This document shows positions 10,915 to 46,462 of a stretch of DNA of 64,000 nt, piece by piece (position 1 is the stretch's first letter; the number at the start of each line of letters is the position of its first letter). The stretch comes from Nonlabens agnitus. GTDB lineage: Bacteria > Bacteroidota > Bacteroidia > Flavobacteriales > Flavobacteriaceae. A program made the translations under genes and the position numbers. The notes beneath the pieces were generated by a model. That model was given only the letters and a program-made list of their open reading frames with translations. It was not told where the DNA came from and searched no databases. The stretch covers positions 968,501 through 1,032,500 of the forward strand of contig NZ_MQUC01000003.1 in NCBI RefSeq assembly GCF_002994045.1, given 5' to 3'.

Positions 10915-10957
10915 TTTCGCTTTCCTGCCTGTCCGGCAGGCAGGCGAGAAAGCGTGA
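10915..10957. repeat. Composite palindrome: core repeat with nested 21-bp palindrome
   Basis: Arms TTTCGCTTT and AAAGCG are separated by an insert at 10924-10944 of the form CCTGCCTG-N5-CAGGCAGG. In minus-strand orientation the insert follows CGCTTTCTCG and precedes AAAGCGAA, the same junctions as the copies at 35666 and 42016. Confidence 0.9.
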
Positions 10958-34363: not shown

Positions 34364-35997
34364 TGGGCTGTTTTATACACTCTAGTCAAATCCAAAATAT
34401 TGATCCCATTGGTTTCCAGTCCATAAACATTCTTGCTGATGAACCTTACGCTCTGGTCATAATATAAAGGAACGATCGCAGCCTGATCAATGATTAGCGA
34501 ATCCATTTGAACGTATAGACGTTCACGTGAATTAGGATCTGGATTTGCTAGCGCCTGCTCATAAAGGCGATCATAAGCCTCGCTGGAGAAATGCGTATAA
34601 TTCGGCCCGTTGGGCGCAAAGTTGTCAGAATAAAATAGGGAAAGGTAGTTTTCAGCATCTGGATAATCGGCTATCCAGCTGGATCTGAAAATATCCAATT
34701 GACCTGCACTGCGCGCTTGTCGCAAGGTTGATGGTGGCATTACTTCTACGTTGACCTGAATGCCTATTTTCTCTAATTCCTTTTGAATGTATTCGCACAA
34801 ATCCAGATAATTTGCATTCGTACTTATCACCACTTGCGGATTTTCATCACCCGTTTCCTGACGGTACTCGTTCACTAATTTTTGAGCCTCTACTGGATCA
34901 TATTCAAAACCTTCCACCTGTCCGCCAGCGGGTAATCCTGCTGGAATAAAACCTTTTGTGGCAGGTGTGCCTATGTTGTTTCTCAAGTATTTGATCATTT
35001 GAACCCGATCAAAGCCCAGATTAATAGCGCGCCTCAACTTCAAACTTTGTAATTCTGGTGTGTCACTATCCAGTTGTAGGCCTAGATATTCTGTATTGAG
35101 AAACGGAGCTTTAATCATATTCACACTGGACGCATAAGCAGGTTTTAAATCACCTTGAGTGGTTAGCAACTCGTCCTTGTAACTGGGATCCAATGCATTT
35201 ATAAAGTCCAGATTACCTTGGGCAAACTCCAGAAATTCGGACTGCTTATCATTTTTAAATGTGATTGCCACAGCTTCCAGATAGGGCAGTGGTGCTCCTT
35301 TTTCATCACGTTCAAAGTAATGATCGTTGCGTCGCAGCACCAGTTTGACATTTTCTTCCCAGCGCTTCATGTAGAATGGTCCAGTGCCTATGGGATTGGA
35401 ACGCCGGTCGTAGTCATCCACTAATCGTGAAGCTTCTGGAATGACCGAGCAATACTTCATCGTCAACAATCCTAAAAATGCTGGAAACGGTTGTTTCAAT
35501 TCTATAACTAACTCGTTGGAAGATGTTGCCTTGATTTGTTTGACATTGCTCATGACCCATGCGCCAGGCGAGGCAACGCTGGGATCTGTAAGTCGTTCCA
35601 AAGCATATTTAAAATCGGCTGCGGTTACTTTGTGTAGTGATGTTGAAGTTGTATTCGCTTTCGCGCCTGCCTGCCGATCAGGCAGGAAAGCGAAATTATC
35701 ATGAAAATAAATGCTGTCCTTTAATCTAAAGCTATAGGTAAGACCATTGCTGCTAACCTCCCATGAATCAGCTATATCTGGAACCACTTGAAGATTGTTG
35801 TCTAGTTTGACCAAACCATTATACATCAAGTTACAGGCCCAAATGTTGCGTTGATCCTTTGAAAAAGCAGGGTCCAGACTTGTGATATTGGCATGCTCAT
35901 TATAACGGAAAACAGTCGTAGAATCAATCTGATCTGAACCTTCAGAACAGGCAATAATCAAAACGTAAAAAAGTAGGAGAGACCACCATCGATTCAT
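34360..35997 (-). CDS. Oligopeptide-type (family 5) solute-binding lipoprotein
   Basis: A 545-residue lipoprotein (YVLIIACSEGSDQ) of the SBP_bac_5 family that binds peptides, opines or nickel complexes for ABC import. The domain markers include NIWACNLMYNGLVKLDNNLQVVPDIADSWEVS near the N terminus and YLGLQLDSDTPELQSLKLRRAINLGFDR. No permease or ATPase genes lie nearby, so it is an orphan or works with remote genes. Residues 102-114, FAFLPDRQAGAKA, are encoded by a composite palindrome with a 7-residue insertion. Confidence 0.9.
   Translation of the reverse strand: MNRWWSLLLFYVLIIACSEGSDQIDSTTVFRYNEHANITSLDPAFSKDQRNIWACNLMYNGLVKLDNNLQVVPDIADSWEVSSNGLTYSFRLKDSIYFHDNFAFLPDRQAGAKANTTSTSLHKVTAADFKYALERLTDPSVASPGAWVMSNVKQIKATSSNELVIELKQPFPAFLGLLTMKYCSVIPEASRLVDDYDRRSNPIGTGPFYMKRWEENVKLVLRRNDHYFERDEKGAPLPYLEAVAITFKNDKQSEFLEFAQGNLDFINALDPSYKDELLTTQGDLKPAYASSVNMIKAPFLNTEYLGLQLDSDTPELQSLKLRRAINLGFDRVQMIKYLRNNIGTPATKGFIPAGLPAGGQVEGFEYDPVEAQKLVNEYRQETGDENPQVVISTNANYLDLCEYIQKELEKIGIQVNVEVMPPSTLRQARSAGQLDIFRSSWIADYPDAENYLSLFYSDNFAPNGPNYTHFSSEAYDRLYEQALANPDPNSRERLYVQMDSLIIDQAAIVPLYYDQSVRFISKNVYGLETNGINILDLTRVYKTAH
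35654..35695. repeat. Composite palindrome inside the solute-binding gene
   Basis: Left arm TTCGCTTTCGCG, insert at 35666-35686 (CCTGCCTG-N5-CAGGCAGG), right arm AAAGCGAA. The 21-bp insert is a multiple of three and keeps the reading frame. Confidence 0.93.
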
Positions 35998-40598: not shown

Positions 40599-41927
40599 AT
40601 GAAAAAATTAGCACTTCACTGGCAAATATTAATAGGAATGGTACTGGGAATCCTTTTTGGATTCCTGATGGTACAATTTGATTGGGGTCGTGGTTTTGTA
40701 GAAGACTGGATCAATCCATTCGGGACGATATTTGTGAATTTGCTTAAGCTTATAGCGGTGCCATTGATTCTTGCCTCGCTGATCAAAGGTATTTCTGATC
40801 TTAAGGACATAGCGAAATTCCGTAAAATGGGATTGCGCACCATTCTCATCTATATAGCCACCACAGTAATTGCGATCACCTTAGGCTTAGGACTGGTGAA
40901 TCTATTAAATCCAGGATCTGGAATCTCACAAGAAACCATCGATAATTTAAGCGCTACCTATGAAGGCAATTCTGATATCGCTGGTAAACTATCTACTGCA
41001 GCCATGCAAAAAGATAGCGGACCTTTACAAGCACTTGTAGATATGGTTCCAGATAATGCCGTTGCTGCGATGTCCAACAACAGCCTGATGCTTCAGGTTA
41101 TTTTCTTTGCTATTTTCTTAGGTATTTCCATGCTATTGATAGGTGAGAAGGCTGCAGAACCTTTGAAGAATTTCTTTGATTCCTTAAATGATGTGGTACT
41201 AAAAATGGTTGATTTGATCATGTTGACAGCACCTTTTGCAGTGTTTGCATTGTTAGCAAATGTTGTCGTGAGTGCAGACGATCCAGATATTCTACTCGCT
41301 TTGTTATTCTATGCAGGTACGGTTGTTCTAGGACTAATTTTGATGATTGTGGTGTACTGTTTAATATTCTGGTTATACGTCAAGAAATCGCCGCTATGGT
41401 TTTTGGACAAAATCGCTCCAGCTCAGTTATTGGCTTTTTCAACCAGTTCTAGTGCCGCAACGCTACCTGTAACCATGGAGCGTGTGGAAGAACACATGGG
41501 CGTGGAAAAAGAAGTAGCGAGTTTTGTACTGCCTGTTGGTGCTACCATTAATATGGATGGCACCAGTCTGTATCAGGCAGTGGCTGCGGTGTTTGTTTGT
41601 CAGGCATTGGGAATTGAATTGGCTTTGACCGCTCAATTAACTATAGTGTTGACGGCGCTGTTGGCATCTATTGGCTCTGCTGCGGTTCCTGGCGCTGGAA
41701 TGGTGATGCTGGTGATTGTTTTGGAGTCCATTAATTTTCCTAGCGAACTACTACCGGTTGCTCTAGCCTTAATATTTGCCGTCGACCGACCGCTGGATAT
41801 GTTGCGTACTACAGTGAATGTTACTGGTGACGCGACAGTAGCTTCTATAGTGGCGAAGTCTTTGGGTAAATTTGGCGAGCCAGATGTACAGGAATGGGAT
41901 GACCACCTGGACGAGGTTTCTTCATAA
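40599..41927 (+). CDS. Dicarboxylate/amino acid:cation symporter (DAACS)
   Basis: A 442-residue inner-membrane transporter of the GltP/GltPh fold. Hairpin 1 carries the serine-rich FSTSSSAATLPVTM (about residues 285-298). TM7 has the NMDGTSLYQAV motif binding sodium and substrate (about 322-332), followed by an SAAVPGAGMVMLVIVLE hairpin 2. It probably imports glutamate, aspartate or a C4-dicarboxylate with sodium or protons. It is monocistronic. Confidence 0.95.
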   Translation: MKKLALHWQILIGMVLGILFGFLMVQFDWGRGFVEDWINPFGTIFVNLLKLIAVPLILASLIKGISDLKDIAKFRKMGLRTILIYIATTVIAITLGLGLVNLLNPGSGISQETIDNLSATYEGNSDIAGKLSTAAMQKDSGPLQALVDMVPDNAVAAMSNNSLMLQVIFFAIFLGISMLLIGEKAAEPLKNFFDSLNDVVLKMVDLIMLTAPFAVFALLANVVVSADDPDILLALLFYAGTVVLGLILMIVVYCLIFWLYVKKSPLWFLDKIAPAQLLAFSTSSSAATLPVTMERVEEHMGVEKEVASFVLPVGATINMDGTSLYQAVAAVFVCQALGIELALTAQLTIVLTALLASIGSAAVPGAGMVMLVIVLESINFPSELLPVALALIFAVDRPLDMLRTTVNVTGDATVASIVAKSLGKFGEPDVQEWDDHLDEVSS

Positions 41928-42005: not shown

Positions 42006-42041
42006 CGCTTTCGCGCCTGCCTGCCGGTCAGGCAGGAAAGC
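42006..42041. repeat. Composite palindrome upstream of the ATP-grasp operon
   Basis: TGCGCTTTCGCG, insert at 42016-42036 (CCTGCCTG-CCGGT-CAGGCAGG), then AAAGCAAAA. It lies in the 215-bp spacer, which otherwise shows no gene. Confidence 0.92.
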
Positions 42042-42142: not shown

Positions 42143-43174
42143 ATGAATGTCTGTTTTATCATGTACCCGTGGGAAGAAGTCCATCCCGAGAGTGATTCCA
42201 CGCTGGTGCTGATCCATGAATGCATGAAGCGTGGTCACACTGTTGCAATGGCAACTCCAGCAAATCTTACCATACGTGATAGCATAGCTTATGCATTCTC
42301 AAAAGTGATACGTAAGATGGACAAAGTGCCAGCTCAAATGAAATCTTTCTATAAGCGAGCACAATTCAAGGAAAAGATGTTACCACTGGCTGGTTTTGAT
42401 GTGATCATGATGCGGGCTAATCCACCTCTAGATCCTATTGCACTCAACTTCTTGGACTCAGTTAAGGAAGATGTATTTATAGTGAATGATATTGAAGGAT
42501 TGCGTGAGGCCAACAATAAGTTGTATACAGCTTGTTTTGTAGATCCAGACAACACGATCATACCTCGTACGCACGTTTCCAAAAACAAGGAATATTTAAA
42601 ATCAGTCATTAAGGAAAACCCTCGAGATCGCATGATCATGAAGCCACTTAACGGTTATGGTGGTAGCGGCGTGATCATGATTGAGAAGAGTGCGATGTTT
42701 AATGTCAACTCTTTGCTGGATTTCTACATTGACAATAAAGACGGTACTACTAATTATGTAATCCTTCAAGATTATATCGATGGCGCAGATCAAGGAGATA
42801 GTCGCATTCTACTCCTTAACGGTAAACCTATAGGCGCCGTAAGACGTGTTCCTGGCGGCGATGATCATAGGTCCAACATTAGCGCTGGCGGCAGTTTTGA
42901 AAAACATAACCTGACAAAAGCTGAAAAGCTACTGTGTAAAAAAATAGGTCCCAAACTAGTAAACGATGGTTTGTTCTTTGTTGGGATCGATGTGATCAAT
43001 GGCATGCTGGTAGAAGTTAACGTGATGTCACCTGGCGGCATTGTTCAAATCAATAAGTCCTCTAAAACCAAGGTCCAAGAAAAGATCATTGACTATTTTG
43101 AAGAAGAGACCAGCATTAGAAAAAAAGCTCTAGATAGAACCCAAAAACTCAAGAACACCCTACTGAATGAATAA
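42143..43174 (+). CDS. Glutathione-synthetase-like ATP-grasp ligase
   Basis: 343 residues from ATG 42143. A TTG at 42113 extends the frame without homology support. The N-terminal pre-ATP-grasp domain starts FIMYPWEEVHPESDSTLVLIHECMKRGH, as in GshB. The ATP-grasp core shows MIMKPLNGYGGSGVIMI (about residues 167-183), a GADQGDSRILLLNGKPIGAVRR strand pair and the Mg-binding VEVNVMSPGG. Such enzymes join a carboxylate to an amine. Its acceptor is unknown, and true glutathione synthesis is doubtful without a gshA neighbour. First gene of an overlapping operon. Confidence 0.9.
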   Translation: MNVCFIMYPWEEVHPESDSTLVLIHECMKRGHTVAMATPANLTIRDSIAYAFSKVIRKMDKVPAQMKSFYKRAQFKEKMLPLAGFDVIMMRANPPLDPIALNFLDSVKEDVFIVNDIEGLREANNKLYTACFVDPDNTIIPRTHVSKNKEYLKSVIKENPRDRMIMKPLNGYGGSGVIMIEKSAMFNVNSLLDFYIDNKDGTTNYVILQDYIDGADQGDSRILLLNGKPIGAVRRVPGGDDHRSNISAGGSFEKHNLTKAEKLLCKKIGPKLVNDGLFFVGIDVINGMLVEVNVMSPGGIVQINKSSKTKVQEKIIDYFEEETSIRKKALDRTQKLKNTLLNE

Positions 43175-44006
43175 AATGTCCATCCGTCAGATCTTGAATA
43201 AGATCGAGCATGAAGAAACATTTCATGCCGTTGTTGACGATTACTCGTTTTCCATAAAAATTGACGATTACGTTCCCTACGTATGCGCTGCAATACATGA
43301 CGGACACCATTTTGATAAAAGACTATGGAAAAAGTGCTTGCATACAGAGTACGATCGCTGGTATGAAGAAGATCCGGCAACGGGTACCATGATTTCCATG
43401 TTGCCCATCACGATTATAGCACACGACAGCAGATTTGAGTATGATCTCAATAGAGATCCCAAAAACGCGATTTATGAAACCGCTTGGGGAAAAACACTTT
43501 GGAAAACGCCATTGTCAGAAGAGGAAAAAGACAGTGCACTTCAAAAGCACGAAAACTTTTATAGAGTCATTCTGCAATTGATTGTCAAGCTGGAAGAGCT
43601 CTTCGGGACTACCGTTTTTTATGATCTACATTCTTACAATTACAAACGTTGGGACCGCAAAGTCCCAATATTTAATATAGGTACTTCAAATGTTGATCAG
43701 ATCAAATACAAATTGGCCATTGAACAATGGAAGGAAATTCTCAATAAAATTGAATTGCCTATTGAACAAGAAGTTTCTTGCGAAATCAATGATGTGTTTC
43801 AAGGAAACGGATTCTTTTTAAAATACGTGACTGCCAATTCCAAGAATTCCTTGGTTCTGGCTACTGAGGTTTCAAAAATATATTGCGATGAAGAAACCGG
43901 CGTTGTGTATCCAGAAGTGGTTCACGCCTTGAAGGACAAGCTCAAGTACTACATACAGTCGCACGCTTATCGTTTCTATGATCGCCACCATACCTTTGAT
44001 CAGTAA
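43167..44006 (+). CDS. N-formylglutamate amidohydrolase family protein
   Basis: 279 residues, overlapping the ATP-grasp gene by 8 bases. It has the FGase-type features IHDGHHFDKRLW near residues 42-53, a TIIAHDSRFEYDLNRDP segment (about 82-98) and FYDLHSYNYKRW (about 149-160), which holds the His/Asp metal ligands. Family members are zinc hydrolases cleaving amide bonds of acyl-glutamate. In this setting the substrate is probably the product of the partner enzymes rather than formylglutamate from histidine breakdown, since no hut genes are seen. Confidence 0.85.
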   Translation: MNKMSIRQILNKIEHEETFHAVVDDYSFSIKIDDYVPYVCAAIHDGHHFDKRLWKKCLHTEYDRWYEEDPATGTMISMLPITIIAHDSRFEYDLNRDPKNAIYETAWGKTLWKTPLSEEEKDSALQKHENFYRVILQLIVKLEELFGTTVFYDLHSYNYKRWDRKVPIFNIGTSNVDQIKYKLAIEQWKEILNKIELPIEQEVSCEINDVFQGNGFFLKYVTANSKNSLVLATEVSKIYCDEETGVVYPEVVHALKDKLKYYIQSHAYRFYDRHHTFDQ

Positions 44007-44012
44007 AAGTCT

Positions 44013-45182
44013 ATGAAGTTATCTAAGTTCACCGGCGAGTTTCAGGAAGTGATGGAAATCGATGAGAATATTCATCGATTGGTCGGTAATCTGGAACTGC
44101 TGGCGTTTATAAATCCGTTGAATATTGCTCAGGAACGCAAGCAATTTTTCAAGGAAAAGTACAAGTACAATCCTAAATTCAAATACCGCAAGGTGCGATT
44201 TGACACCTATAAACTGCATCGTCTATTTTTTAGCCAGCGGCTCAAGGACATCGATGACAAGGTTATACGAGACCTATACAAGGACGTGGTATATACCTAC
44301 AGTGGTATGGTCCAGTGCATTGAGACCATAAGCCAGCCAGACAATCGGTTTTATTTCAACAGCCTACGGTTTTACGGTACGCCTACCGATAAGATGGTGG
44401 AAAACGCAAAGTTCATCCTACACCATAGGGAAGATGATGAGTCCGCTTTCGCGAAAGCGGAACCTCAATTATCTACAGAACAAGCGATCCAATTCTTTGA
44501 AGATTATAAAAAGGAATACGGTTTCAACTTTGCCATCAAAACTAGCAGCGCCATGAGTGCCGCGGCAATGGTTTCCAATAAAGACCGTGCACTTATATTG
44601 AAGAAGAATCACCAGTTCTCGCAGCACCAGCTTAATGTTTTGGCGCACCACGAGATAGGTGTACACCTGGTCACGACTTTTAATGCGATCGAGCAACCCT
44701 TAAAAGTGTTCGGGAATGGATTCCCCAACAATGTGGAAACACAGGAAGGACTAGCCGTTTTTGCGGAATATATGAGTGGTAATTTGACCGTTTCCAGACT
44801 GCGAGAATTGGCTTATCGTGTGATTGCCGCAGACAGCCTTATCAAAGGAAACGACTTCACAGAAACCTTTAACCTGATCCATAATCAGTACGGTCTGGAT
44901 CGTGAGCGAGCCTTCAATATTACCTTGAGAGTTCACCGTGGTGGCGGTTTTACGAAAGATGCATTATACCTTTCTGGTCTTCAAAAAATATACAACCTTC
45001 ATCAAGCCGGCGAAAGCATGGAATCATTGTTGATGGGTAAATGTTCCCTAGAATACTTGCCATCTGTAAAAAGATTGCAGGAAGTAGGTCTTGCTAAACC
45101 CATTACTTATAAATGCAAATCCTACAATTCCAATAACAATAAAGACCAACGTGTAGAATGGATATTGCAAAATTTAAAATAG
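44013..45182 (+). CDS. DUF1704 / QEGLA-motif metallopeptidase (MATCAP-like)
   Basis: A 389-residue protein. The zinc motif HEIGVH (HExxxH, residues 213-218) is followed by QEGLA at 244-248, whose Glu245 is the likely third ligand. The family is named 'flavohemoglobin expression-modulating QEGLA motif protein' and is related to the eukaryotic microtubule tyrosine carboxypeptidase MATCAP. It may remove a C-terminal amino acid from a small protein or peptide. It starts 7 bases after the FGase stop. Residues 145-148 (AFAK) come from a palindromic repeat. Confidence 0.88.
   Translation: MKLSKFTGEFQEVMEIDENIHRLVGNLELLAFINPLNIAQERKQFFKEKYKYNPKFKYRKVRFDTYKLHRLFFSQRLKDIDDKVIRDLYKDVVYTYSGMVQCIETISQPDNRFYFNSLRFYGTPTDKMVENAKFILHHREDDESAFAKAEPQLSTEQAIQFFEDYKKEYGFNFAIKTSSAMSAAAMVSNKDRALILKKNHQFSQHQLNVLAHHEIGVHLVTTFNAIEQPLKVFGNGFPNNVETQEGLAVFAEYMSGNLTVSRLRELAYRVIAADSLIKGNDFTETFNLIHNQYGLDRERAFNITLRVHRGGGFTKDALYLSGLQKIYNLHQAGESMESLLMGKCSLEYLPSVKRLQEVGLAKPITYKCKSYNSNNNKDQRVEWILQNLK
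44442..44461. repeat. Palindromic repeat inside the QEGLA gene
   Basis: A 20-bp perfect palindrome with CC/GG flanks (core 44445-44458), read as Ser-Ala-Phe-Ala-Lys-Ala. Confidence 0.93.
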
Positions 45183-46462
45183 TCTCGTTTTTAATATTAC
45201 TTTTTATTAGTGCCCCAATATCTTGGGCGCAATATGACATTCCTATATATGTTACCACCACAACTACAGAGAATGTACCGGTAAGGATCGTTACCAATAG
45301 TTTGGTCGATCAGGTCTATGAAAGAGTAGATTCTGCATATAGATCTGGTTTTGGAGGCTTTAACAGCTTGATTGTAGAAAATAAAATCTTTCCCATTCAT
45401 CTAGAGGACTTTGATGATTTCAATGCAGCTGTTTTTAAAAATGACAGCCTTATTACGGTCATTTACTCAGGTGCTCAAGGCGCGTTAAAAAATGAATATT
45501 TGATTACGCGTAATGAAGTTTACACCGAGTTTGCCAATCAAAAGGATTTATTGAAGCAGCCCATGGCACAACTCGCTCCATCGATGGATAGCCTGACTAA
45601 TGTATGGATGGAAAAGCTTAAAAGCATGCCTTTTAGCGAGTTGTTTAAAGAAGATGAGGCCATGTATTATAAGAGTTTTCAGGCTTATGTAAAACTGGCA
45701 CACCAGCAATATCAAATGGACCAAACCACTTCGCTTGAAGATCTTGAATTGCAGGATTTTCCTGATATGGATTTCTCTAGCAATCGTTATTATACTACCA
45801 TACCACAATACAAGGCGATGGCGCAAGTATATAACTTCAAGAAACTATTGCAACTAGAAAAGGTGCGGTATGGTCGCCGATTTGTCAATGATTTAGATGG
45901 TTTTATTACTAGCGATCTTAAAAAGAAAGCATTTGTCCAGTCTACGGAGCACCATCCTAGAGCAGACTTTTTGTATGACATTTCAAAACCACTTTACAAT
46001 CCGCATACAAGTAAGGAACGACGCCTATATAGAAAAAGTAAAAAAACAGGAAAGGGCAGTGATTTTGAGTATCCAGAAGTGCAAACCGTTGATGGTGCCA
46101 GCGTCAATTTCAATAATTTTCAAGGTAAAAAAATCCAATTATTAGTTTACAGTTTTAGAGATCCCTTTCTAAGACAAAACCTAACCAAGTGGAATAAATT
46201 TGCGGTACAGCAAGAGCCAGACACCTACTATGTCGCTTATGGAGTTGATGCCTCACTTTATGAGGATACATGGAAGGAATTGCAATTTTCCAGTCAGCTT
46301 GCTGGACTTAATGTAAAAGCAAGTCCCAAGGATGGTTTTGAATTTAGAGAAGATCTTGGAATATTATTATTACCTCGCGTCATCTCGATTGATGCGAATG
46401 GGGTTATTTCTAATCCCAACTTGGATCTCGATTTTGAAAAAAGCGTGCCGCTGGGCAGATAA
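45158..46462 (+). CDS. Exported protein with thioredoxin-like C-terminal region
   Basis: A 434-residue protein with a signal peptide (FLILLFISAPISWAQ). It overlaps the QEGLA gene by 25 bases. The N-terminal 280 residues are helical and unassigned. The segment around 300-400 (VNFNNFQGKKIQLLVYSFRDPFLRQNLTKWNKF) has the strand-helix pattern of AhpC/TlpA-like folds but no CxxC. A role with the preceding three genes is possible because of the overlap. It is otherwise unknown. Confidence 0.7.
   Translation: MDIAKFKIVSFLILLFISAPISWAQYDIPIYVTTTTTENVPVRIVTNSLVDQVYERVDSAYRSGFGGFNSLIVENKIFPIHLEDFDDFNAAVFKNDSLITVIYSGAQGALKNEYLITRNEVYTEFANQKDLLKQPMAQLAPSMDSLTNVWMEKLKSMPFSELFKEDEAMYYKSFQAYVKLAHQQYQMDQTTSLEDLELQDFPDMDFSSNRYYTTIPQYKAMAQVYNFKKLLQLEKVRYGRRFVNDLDGFITSDLKKKAFVQSTEHHPRADFLYDISKPLYNPHTSKERRLYRKSKKTGKGSDFEYPEVQTVDGASVNFNNFQGKKIQLLVYSFRDPFLRQNLTKWNKFAVQQEPDTYYVAYGVDASLYEDTWKELQFSSQLAGLNVKASPKDGFEFREDLGILLLPRVISIDANGVISNPNLDLDFEKSVPLGR

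Follow-up and report, generated by a model that had tools for sequence, protein, structure and literature searches.

Why would a bacterium encode an ATP-grasp ligase directly beside two metallohydrolases? The question arises from a 64,000-nucleotide stretch of Nonlabens agnitus (Flavobacteriaceae; contig NZ_MQUC01000003.1, positions 968,501 to 1,032,500), which we call the window. On its + strand, at 42143-45182, three intact open reading frames (ORFs) follow one another: a ligase with the fold of glutathione synthase (GshB), a protein with the fold of N-formylglutamate amidohydrolase (FGase), and a metallopeptidase of the MATCAP family (DUF1704). The original prediction, which was made without database searches, had noticed that neighboring frames overlap or abut. 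ORF coordinates and Pfam matches agree: ligase and FGase share 8 bases (43167-43174), while the gap between FGase and MATCAP, which had been given as 7 bases, is 6 bases (44007-44012). The ligase starts with the ATG at 42143, and an in-frame TTG 30 bases further upstream is likewise open.

We propose, with a probability of roughly 50%, that the three genes form one functional cassette that would add amino acids to, and remove them from, the carboxyl end of a single acidic substrate, with a small peptide being likelier than a protein tail. We view the genes as one cassette because they occur together and co-vary, because some loci fuse FGase to MATCAP, and because the catalytic motifs are kept.

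We ran the survey of DUF1704 neighborhoods that had been suggested along with the original prediction. It covered 101 loci with 104 MATCAP ORFs. Both an FGase and a ligase were within 1.5 kb of the MATCAP, or fused to it, for 86 of these ORFs; 13 had only the ligase, 3 had only the FGase, and 2 had neither. Counted by locus, the trio was complete in 86 of 101 cases, from 12 phyla, so it is not confined to close relatives, which would have spoken against the prediction. Complete loci were found in Pseudomonadota (41 of 44), Bacteroidota including the window (15 of 20), Planctomycetota (11 of 14), Actinomycetota (3 of 3), Campylobacterota (2 of 3), Gemmatimonadota, Acidobacteriota, and Calditrichota (2 of 2 each), Myxococcota, Verrucomicrobiota, Poribacteria, and Kiritimatiellota (1 of 1 each), and plasmid records (4 of 5), and in 0 of 2 unplaced bins. 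The 80 contig loci in this set are the best 80 of at least 571 confirmed MATCAP relatives, ranked by similarity to a Rhizobiales MATCAP, and 37 of them are of the Rhizobiales type and are not independent. Many of the non-Rhizobiales loci are from metagenome bins, and their phylum labels rest on the binning. The plasmid loci come from 5 of 127 plasmid records.

The genes are also tightly arranged. Among FGases and ligases encoded as separate genes, 75 of 83 FGases lie on the same strand as the MATCAP and within 20 bp of it, as do 61 of 83 ligases; just 2 FGases and 3 ligases are on the opposite strand. Gene order varies: on pSymB of Sinorhizobium meliloti, it is FGase, MATCAP, ligase. The three families neighbor each other far beyond chance. 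Fifteen loci are incomplete (L017, L025, L029, L031, L032, L077, L082, L085, L093, L099, L105, L106, L108, L113, and L114). In four of these (L077, L082, L099, L106), the MATCAP is close to a contig end; in L025, the ligase is 2 kb off; and for L085, L093, and L114, an FGase and a ligase are encoded elsewhere in the same genomes.

The seeds for the FGase and ligase models came from some of the scanned loci, and those loci match by construction. A reverse test with the ligase family NF009110 is free of this problem. PF08014, the MATCAP family, is rare in the Bacteroidota (16 of 296 sampled genomes, including that of the window) and was not found in any of 14 control genomes. (Within the window's own genus, 18 of 23 genomes have it, and four carry a second, long copy.) In the same 296 genomes, NF009110 had 17 strong matches (396-472 bits) in 15 genomes. 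All 15 of these genomes have a MATCAP, and every one of the matches is within 2.5 kb of it. The next-best match, at 215 bits, has no MATCAP on its contig, and weak matches occur in 115 of the 296 genomes. The family's own cut-off of 408 bits is reached in 14 genomes; we set the line at 396 bits after seeing the scores, and G002 lies below 408. The overlap between carriers of the ligase and of MATCAP gives a hypergeometric P of 2.6e-24, without correction for relatedness. Seen from the MATCAP side, regions of about 15 kb around the gene in 15 Bacteroidota relatives include a ligase within 2.5 kb in all except L017.

L017 (6931-8205, genome G186) is a lone MATCAP. It has the top PF08014 score of the Bacteroidota set (361.8 bits), and its genome has no strong trio-type ligase (the best NF009110 match is 74.6 bits). 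It is a second, unlinked type of bacterial MATCAP, and a comparison aimed at human MATCAP in the PDB gave no match at E of 0.1. Among 50,697 phage records we found one partial MATCAP match, in Pseudomonas phage Y1 (OQ572403, 63545-64081, H66), which spans 43% of the query at 32.8% identity.

The sequences of the three proteins diverge in step. Their pairwise distances are correlated with r of 0.79-0.88 (37 loci, thinned from 78), as compared to a maximum of 0.47 in permutations, and common descent may explain some of it. We distinguish two architectures. In type A, which includes the window, a ligase of the "alpha" clade precedes an FGase and a short MATCAP (about 390 amino acids), or else an FGase-MATCAP fusion. 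In type B, an FGase is followed by a long MATCAP (about 600-700 amino acids) and a "beta" ligase. A quick tree of MATCAPs (70 of 103 rows after thinning the Rhizobiales, with L017 left out by the length filter) parts 9 type A rows from 61 type B rows, with both groups starred. Four loci encode an FGase-MATCAP fusion, and in most of the non-fused loci, the MATCAP carries a degenerate pseudo-FGase domain. Mixed sets occur as well: in L022, L023, and L116, a type B MATCAP and a single FGase are flanked by ligases of both clades, alpha and beta. Among the Planctomycetota, L084 (2204-10180) and L095 (3741-11614) each line up three ligases with an FGase and two long MATCAPs, and L083 has three ligases with one MATCAP. 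The L084 and L095 clusters look as if residues were added stepwise.

The catalytic motifs of both hydrolases are conserved. The window's MATCAP scores 338.2 bits against PF08014 (cut-off 27), and its HEIGVH and QEGLA motifs, whose integrity had been noted in the original prediction, are indeed present and align to the HExxxH and EGLA of the human chain 7z5g. Residue counts here cover the domains that passed score and length filters (86 FGases, 102 ligases, 103 MATCAPs): H213, E214, H218, Q244, and E245 are identical in 103 of 103 MATCAPs. The family name "flavohemoglobin expression-modulating" was said to leave the operon unexplained, and this seems reasonable: we found no paper that tests the name in the literature searched. 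The window's MATCAP misses the cut-off of that family (TIGR02421; 324.1 vs. 338.65 bits), and a fused relative, in L021, reaches it (381.3 bits).

The FGase scores 49.9 bits against PF05013 (cut-off 28.9) and has the fold of that family. Its closest named homologs are Nonlabens proteins. A HutG-type N-formylglutamate deformylase was considered and rejected (TIGR02017; 23.5 vs. 278.75 bits). H44, D93, N95, and R96 (the last three in the DLNR motif), and D153 of the DLHS motif are identical in 86 of 86 aligned domains, and H155 in 98%. We take H44 and DLHS to be the likely metal ligands, and we presume that DLNR binds the substrate's carboxylate, as in the M14-like superfamily.

What does the ligase make? 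One reply would be glutathione, with the ligase as a plain glutathione synthase and with the hydrolases recycling glutathione or its conjugates. The window's ligase matches both GshB domains (PF02955, 185.7 bits; PF02951, 87.9 bits) and reaches the cut-off of one glutathione synthase family (NF003573; 287.6 vs. 272 bits), as do the two other alpha ligases that we tested; five of five beta ligases fail. Trio ligases keep many invariants of canonical GshB, including R86, R210, R225, R233, D273, E281, and N283, and the S. meliloti ligase is annotated as a glutathione synthase. Yet the window's ligase misses the cut-off of another glutathione synthase family (TIGR01380; 240.8 vs. 299.05 bits). The threonine at position 288 of E. 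coli GshB, which is present in 5 of 5 canonical enzymes, is a glycine in 102 of 102 trio ligases. Nor is there an obvious supplier of gamma-Glu-Cys: neither PF04107 nor PF04262 has a match in the window genome, where PF08886-type GshA was not searched for. (Of the 16 Bacteroidota genomes with MATCAP, 10 have neither family and 6 have a match to PF04107, which we take to cover other ligases too.) The trio gene is the window genome's only match above 70 bits to the GSH-S_ATP domain (186.6 bits; the other match is at 61.9). All four Rhizobiales genomes that we tested encode a separate, canonical GshB (238-248 bits, 41-45% identity to E. coli GshB), alongside trio ligases at 174-181 bits. Also, glutathione synthesis does not need an FGase and a MATCAP. 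Because the window genome has neither PF04107 nor PF04262, and because all four Rhizobiales have another GshB, ordinary glutathione synthesis by the trio ligase is unlikely, so the finding that the original prediction had singled out as fatal to it probably does not apply, the NF003573 score notwithstanding. A plain GshB was rejected as our preferred explanation on these grounds and for the change at T288, and the full glutathione scenario strikes us as quite improbable.

The ligases themselves fall into two clades, with 11 alpha and 59 beta rows in a quick tree of 75 rows (from 107, after thinning the Rhizobiales) that carries a long-branch warning. The window's ligase shares no more than 32% identity with beta ligases and 30-33% with canonical GshB, and some canonical GshB residues are kept in the alpha clade and lost in the beta clade. 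At L080 (9125-10171) and L114 (9117-10159), the ligase frame is broken into two ORFs, which a stop, a frameshift, or an error in the sequence would explain.

If the three genes are one cassette for a carboxyl end, it might work as follows. Using ATP, the ligase would activate an acidic substrate, probably one that contains glutamate, at its free carboxyl end and would add an amino acid there. The FGase and MATCAP, perhaps working as one bifunctional complex, would remove amino acids from the same end. The cassette would thus build, trim, or swap the C-terminal residue of one substrate. We favor a carboxyl end because each of the two hydrolase families either contains carboxypeptidases or has the carboxypeptidase fold, and a shared acidic substrate is the simplest explanation for why a carboxyl-end ligase and two carboxypeptidase-type enzymes are kept together. 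Three observations make a small cytosolic peptide seem a more likely substrate than a protein tail: across phyla, the cassette is self-contained; it has no conserved target gene; and its ligase has the GshB fold without an added protein-docking domain. When we clustered the neighbors within 6 kb, no fourth gene or substrate gene outside the Bacteroidota kept a constant position next to the trio.

The main rival to a small peptide is the reversible modification of a bacterial protein: the ligase would add a residue to the protein's tail and the two peptidases would remove it, as TTL and MATCAP do for tubulin, or as RimK does for ribosomal protein S6. The pairing of an ATP-grasp ligase with the MATCAP family is like that of eukaryotes, where TTL is an ATP-grasp enzyme, and it is the ligase (near 99 of 104 MATCAP ORFs) rather than the FGase (89 of 104) that is within 1.5 kb most often. 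RimK and RimB are a precedent for a ligase and a peptidase that act on a protein (PMC12239564). However, the 6-kb clustering has no conserved target gene (a target encoded elsewhere is compatible with this), and the ligase is in the GshB subfamily: a RimK-type ligase was rejected (TIGR00768; 84.2 vs. 143.4 bits). The tubulin-like cycle of the original prediction is possible, then, and gained no direct support, as no gene beside the cassette has the profile of a conserved substrate. We think that a protein tail is unlikely.

Alternatively, there might be no cycle. The hydrolases could strip a peptide or an acyl amino acid that was scavenged or formed under stress, and the ligase could rebuild a different one. 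Having two hydrolases per ligase would make sense for such salvage, and the three-ligase loci of Planctomycetota (L083, L084, L095) are what stepwise assembly would predict. A symporter of the acidic-amino-acid type (SDF family), which in the Flavobacteriaceae often precedes the cassette, fits as well: in 8 Flavobacteriaceae-type loci, the alpha ligase has it as its upstream neighbor on the same strand, across a gap of 14-458 bases, and in the window it ends 215 bases 5' of the ligase. But the symporter cluster (9 loci) was seen in Bacteroidota only, and nothing indicates the order of the reactions. We find remodeling of this kind doubtful.

Several points weigh against the add-and-remove cassette that we prefer. 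Its activity, substrate, and product are all predicted from sequence alone, and the absence of a target gene is a weak basis for choosing a small peptide. The alpha ligases tested (3 of 3) do pass as glutathione synthases by NF003573. Given the distance between the alpha and beta sequences, the bonds that the two clades form may differ. Four genomes (G053, G273, G309, and G310, of which the last two are metagenome bins) keep MATCAP and ligase, and no FGase of the trio type was found in them, so the FGase is not always required. And some MATCAPs lack a ligase, namely L017 and L105 (none was found in the latter's metagenome-bin genome).

Other neighbors of the cassette are less constant. Besides the symporter, clustering found aroC in 8 loci, all in Bacteroidota. 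The largest cluster (22 loci; 505 amino acids) varies in side and strand, and it probably encodes an ABC-transporter ATPase, judging by how one locus is annotated; another cluster is in 10 loci. In the window, an ORF of 434 amino acids with a signal-peptide-like start (45158-46462) overlaps the end of the MATCAP gene by 25 bases. It matches no Pfam or NCBIfam family. We do not count it in the cassette because it has no homolog in the MATCAP regions of the 15 Bacteroidota relatives.

Two repeats were seen as well. The perfect 16-bp palindrome CGCTTTCGCGAAAGCG has 676 copies in the 3.2-Mb genome (0 for the reversed control), and 13 exact copies in the window, spaced by 2.5-9.5 kb (Table 1). Four of these lie within open frames of over 370 codons, including aroC and the MATCAP gene, and are read as AFAKA. 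The palindrome is in 12 of 12 genomes tested from the genus (355-737 copies, own genome included) and in 0 of 8 from the order's other families. It resembles the HIP1 phenomenon of cyanobacteria; a limited search of papers found nothing about it. The inverted repeat CCTGCCTGCCGGNCAGGCAGG (up to 2 mismatches) occurs in the window at 10924-10944, 35666-35686, and 42016-42036, and the last copy is 106 bases upstream of the ligase's start.

Table 1. Features of the cassette and its surroundings, in window coordinates.
Feature	Position	Strand	Basis
SDF (glutamate/C4-dicarboxylate type) symporter, accessory	40599..41927	+	Pfam profile, neighbor clustering
GshB-fold ATP-grasp ligase, alpha clade, 343 aa	42143..43174	+	PF02955 and PF02951 profiles; tree
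Ligase SPGG loop (SPT in canonical GshB)	43028..43039	+	alignment
FGase-fold metallohydrolase, 279 aa	43167..44006	+	PF05013 profile
FGase H44, likely metal ligand	43296..43298	+	alignment; role putative
FGase DLNR motif	43443..43454	+	alignment; role putative
FGase DLHS motif, likely metal ligand	43623..43634	+	alignment; role putative
MATCAP/DUF1704 metallopeptidase, short type A, 389 aa	44013..45182	+	PF08014 profile; tree
MATCAP HEIGVH metal-binding/catalytic motif	44649..44666	+	alignment
MATCAP QEGLA motif, E likely third metal ligand (EEGLA in human chain)	44742..44756	+	alignment
Palindrome CGCTTTCGCGAAAGCG	4580, 14086, 16905, 19962, 24406, 26887, 32045, 37447, 40025, 44444, 51799, 58108, 63537

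Many genes are probably misnamed, with the ligase as a glutathione synthase and the peptidase as flavohemoglobin expression-modulating (at least 571 MATCAP relatives were confirmed). A new small peptide may emerge, partly in genomes without a match to two families of gamma-Glu-Cys ligases. The cassette also gives the MATCAP family a set of bacterial partners, so that its ancestral substrate becomes testable in free-living bacteria. No paper describing the trio was found in the literature searched, with subscription journals mostly outside our reach; Iyer and colleagues reportedly surveyed amidoligase operons in 2009 and might have mentioned this neighborhood.

How does the trio compare to known systems? 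E. coli GshB (1gsa) is homologous to the trio ligase over its full length, with many invariants in common, but the trio ligase has the glycine in place of T288, lacks a GshA-type partner in the window genome as judged by PF04107 and PF04262, and occurs besides a canonical GshB in each of the four Rhizobiales genomes tested. N-formylglutamate amidohydrolase (2q7s, HutG) is just 16% identical to the window's FGase, whose neighbors are not histidine-degradation genes. The human tubulin metallocarboxypeptidases MATCAP/TMCP (KIAA0895L and KIAA0895) share PF08014, HExxxH, and EGLA with the window's protein. Unlike them, the trio MATCAPs have about 390 amino acids without the human N-terminal part, or carry a fused FGase or pseudo-FGase domain; they lie in an operon with ligase and FGase, and have no known tubulin substrate. 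Tentatively, MATCAP-type carboxypeptidases might have been paired with ATP-grasp ligases before tubulin tyrosination arose: bacteria of many phyla would run an add-and-remove cycle on the carboxyl end of an acidic peptide or protein, with the ligase and an FGase-MATCAP complex, and eukaryotes would have reused the MATCAP half on tubulin.

The closest bacterial parallels are RimK/RimB and RloABC of Pseudomonas, in which an ATP-grasp protein is likewise encoded with a dedicated peptidase. Their peptidases are aspartic and retropepsin-like (PMC12239564), whereas the trio has two unrelated families of metalloenzymes and a ligase that resembles GshB rather than RimK. The same source ties Rlo to survival at low osmolarity. 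In Photobacterium damselae, a "GshB" (A0J47_RS17020) and a QEGLA protein (A0J47_RS17025) are up 38.4-fold and 27.5-fold in 1% vs. 3% NaCl (PMC10308900). We infer that this pair is a trio-type cassette; two other Photobacterium records (L035 and L036) have an alpha ligase and then an FGase-MATCAP fusion. If so, the strongly induced "gshB", which the authors of PMC10308900 discuss as a glutathione synthetase, could be read differently, and induction by low salt would be a further likeness to Rlo.

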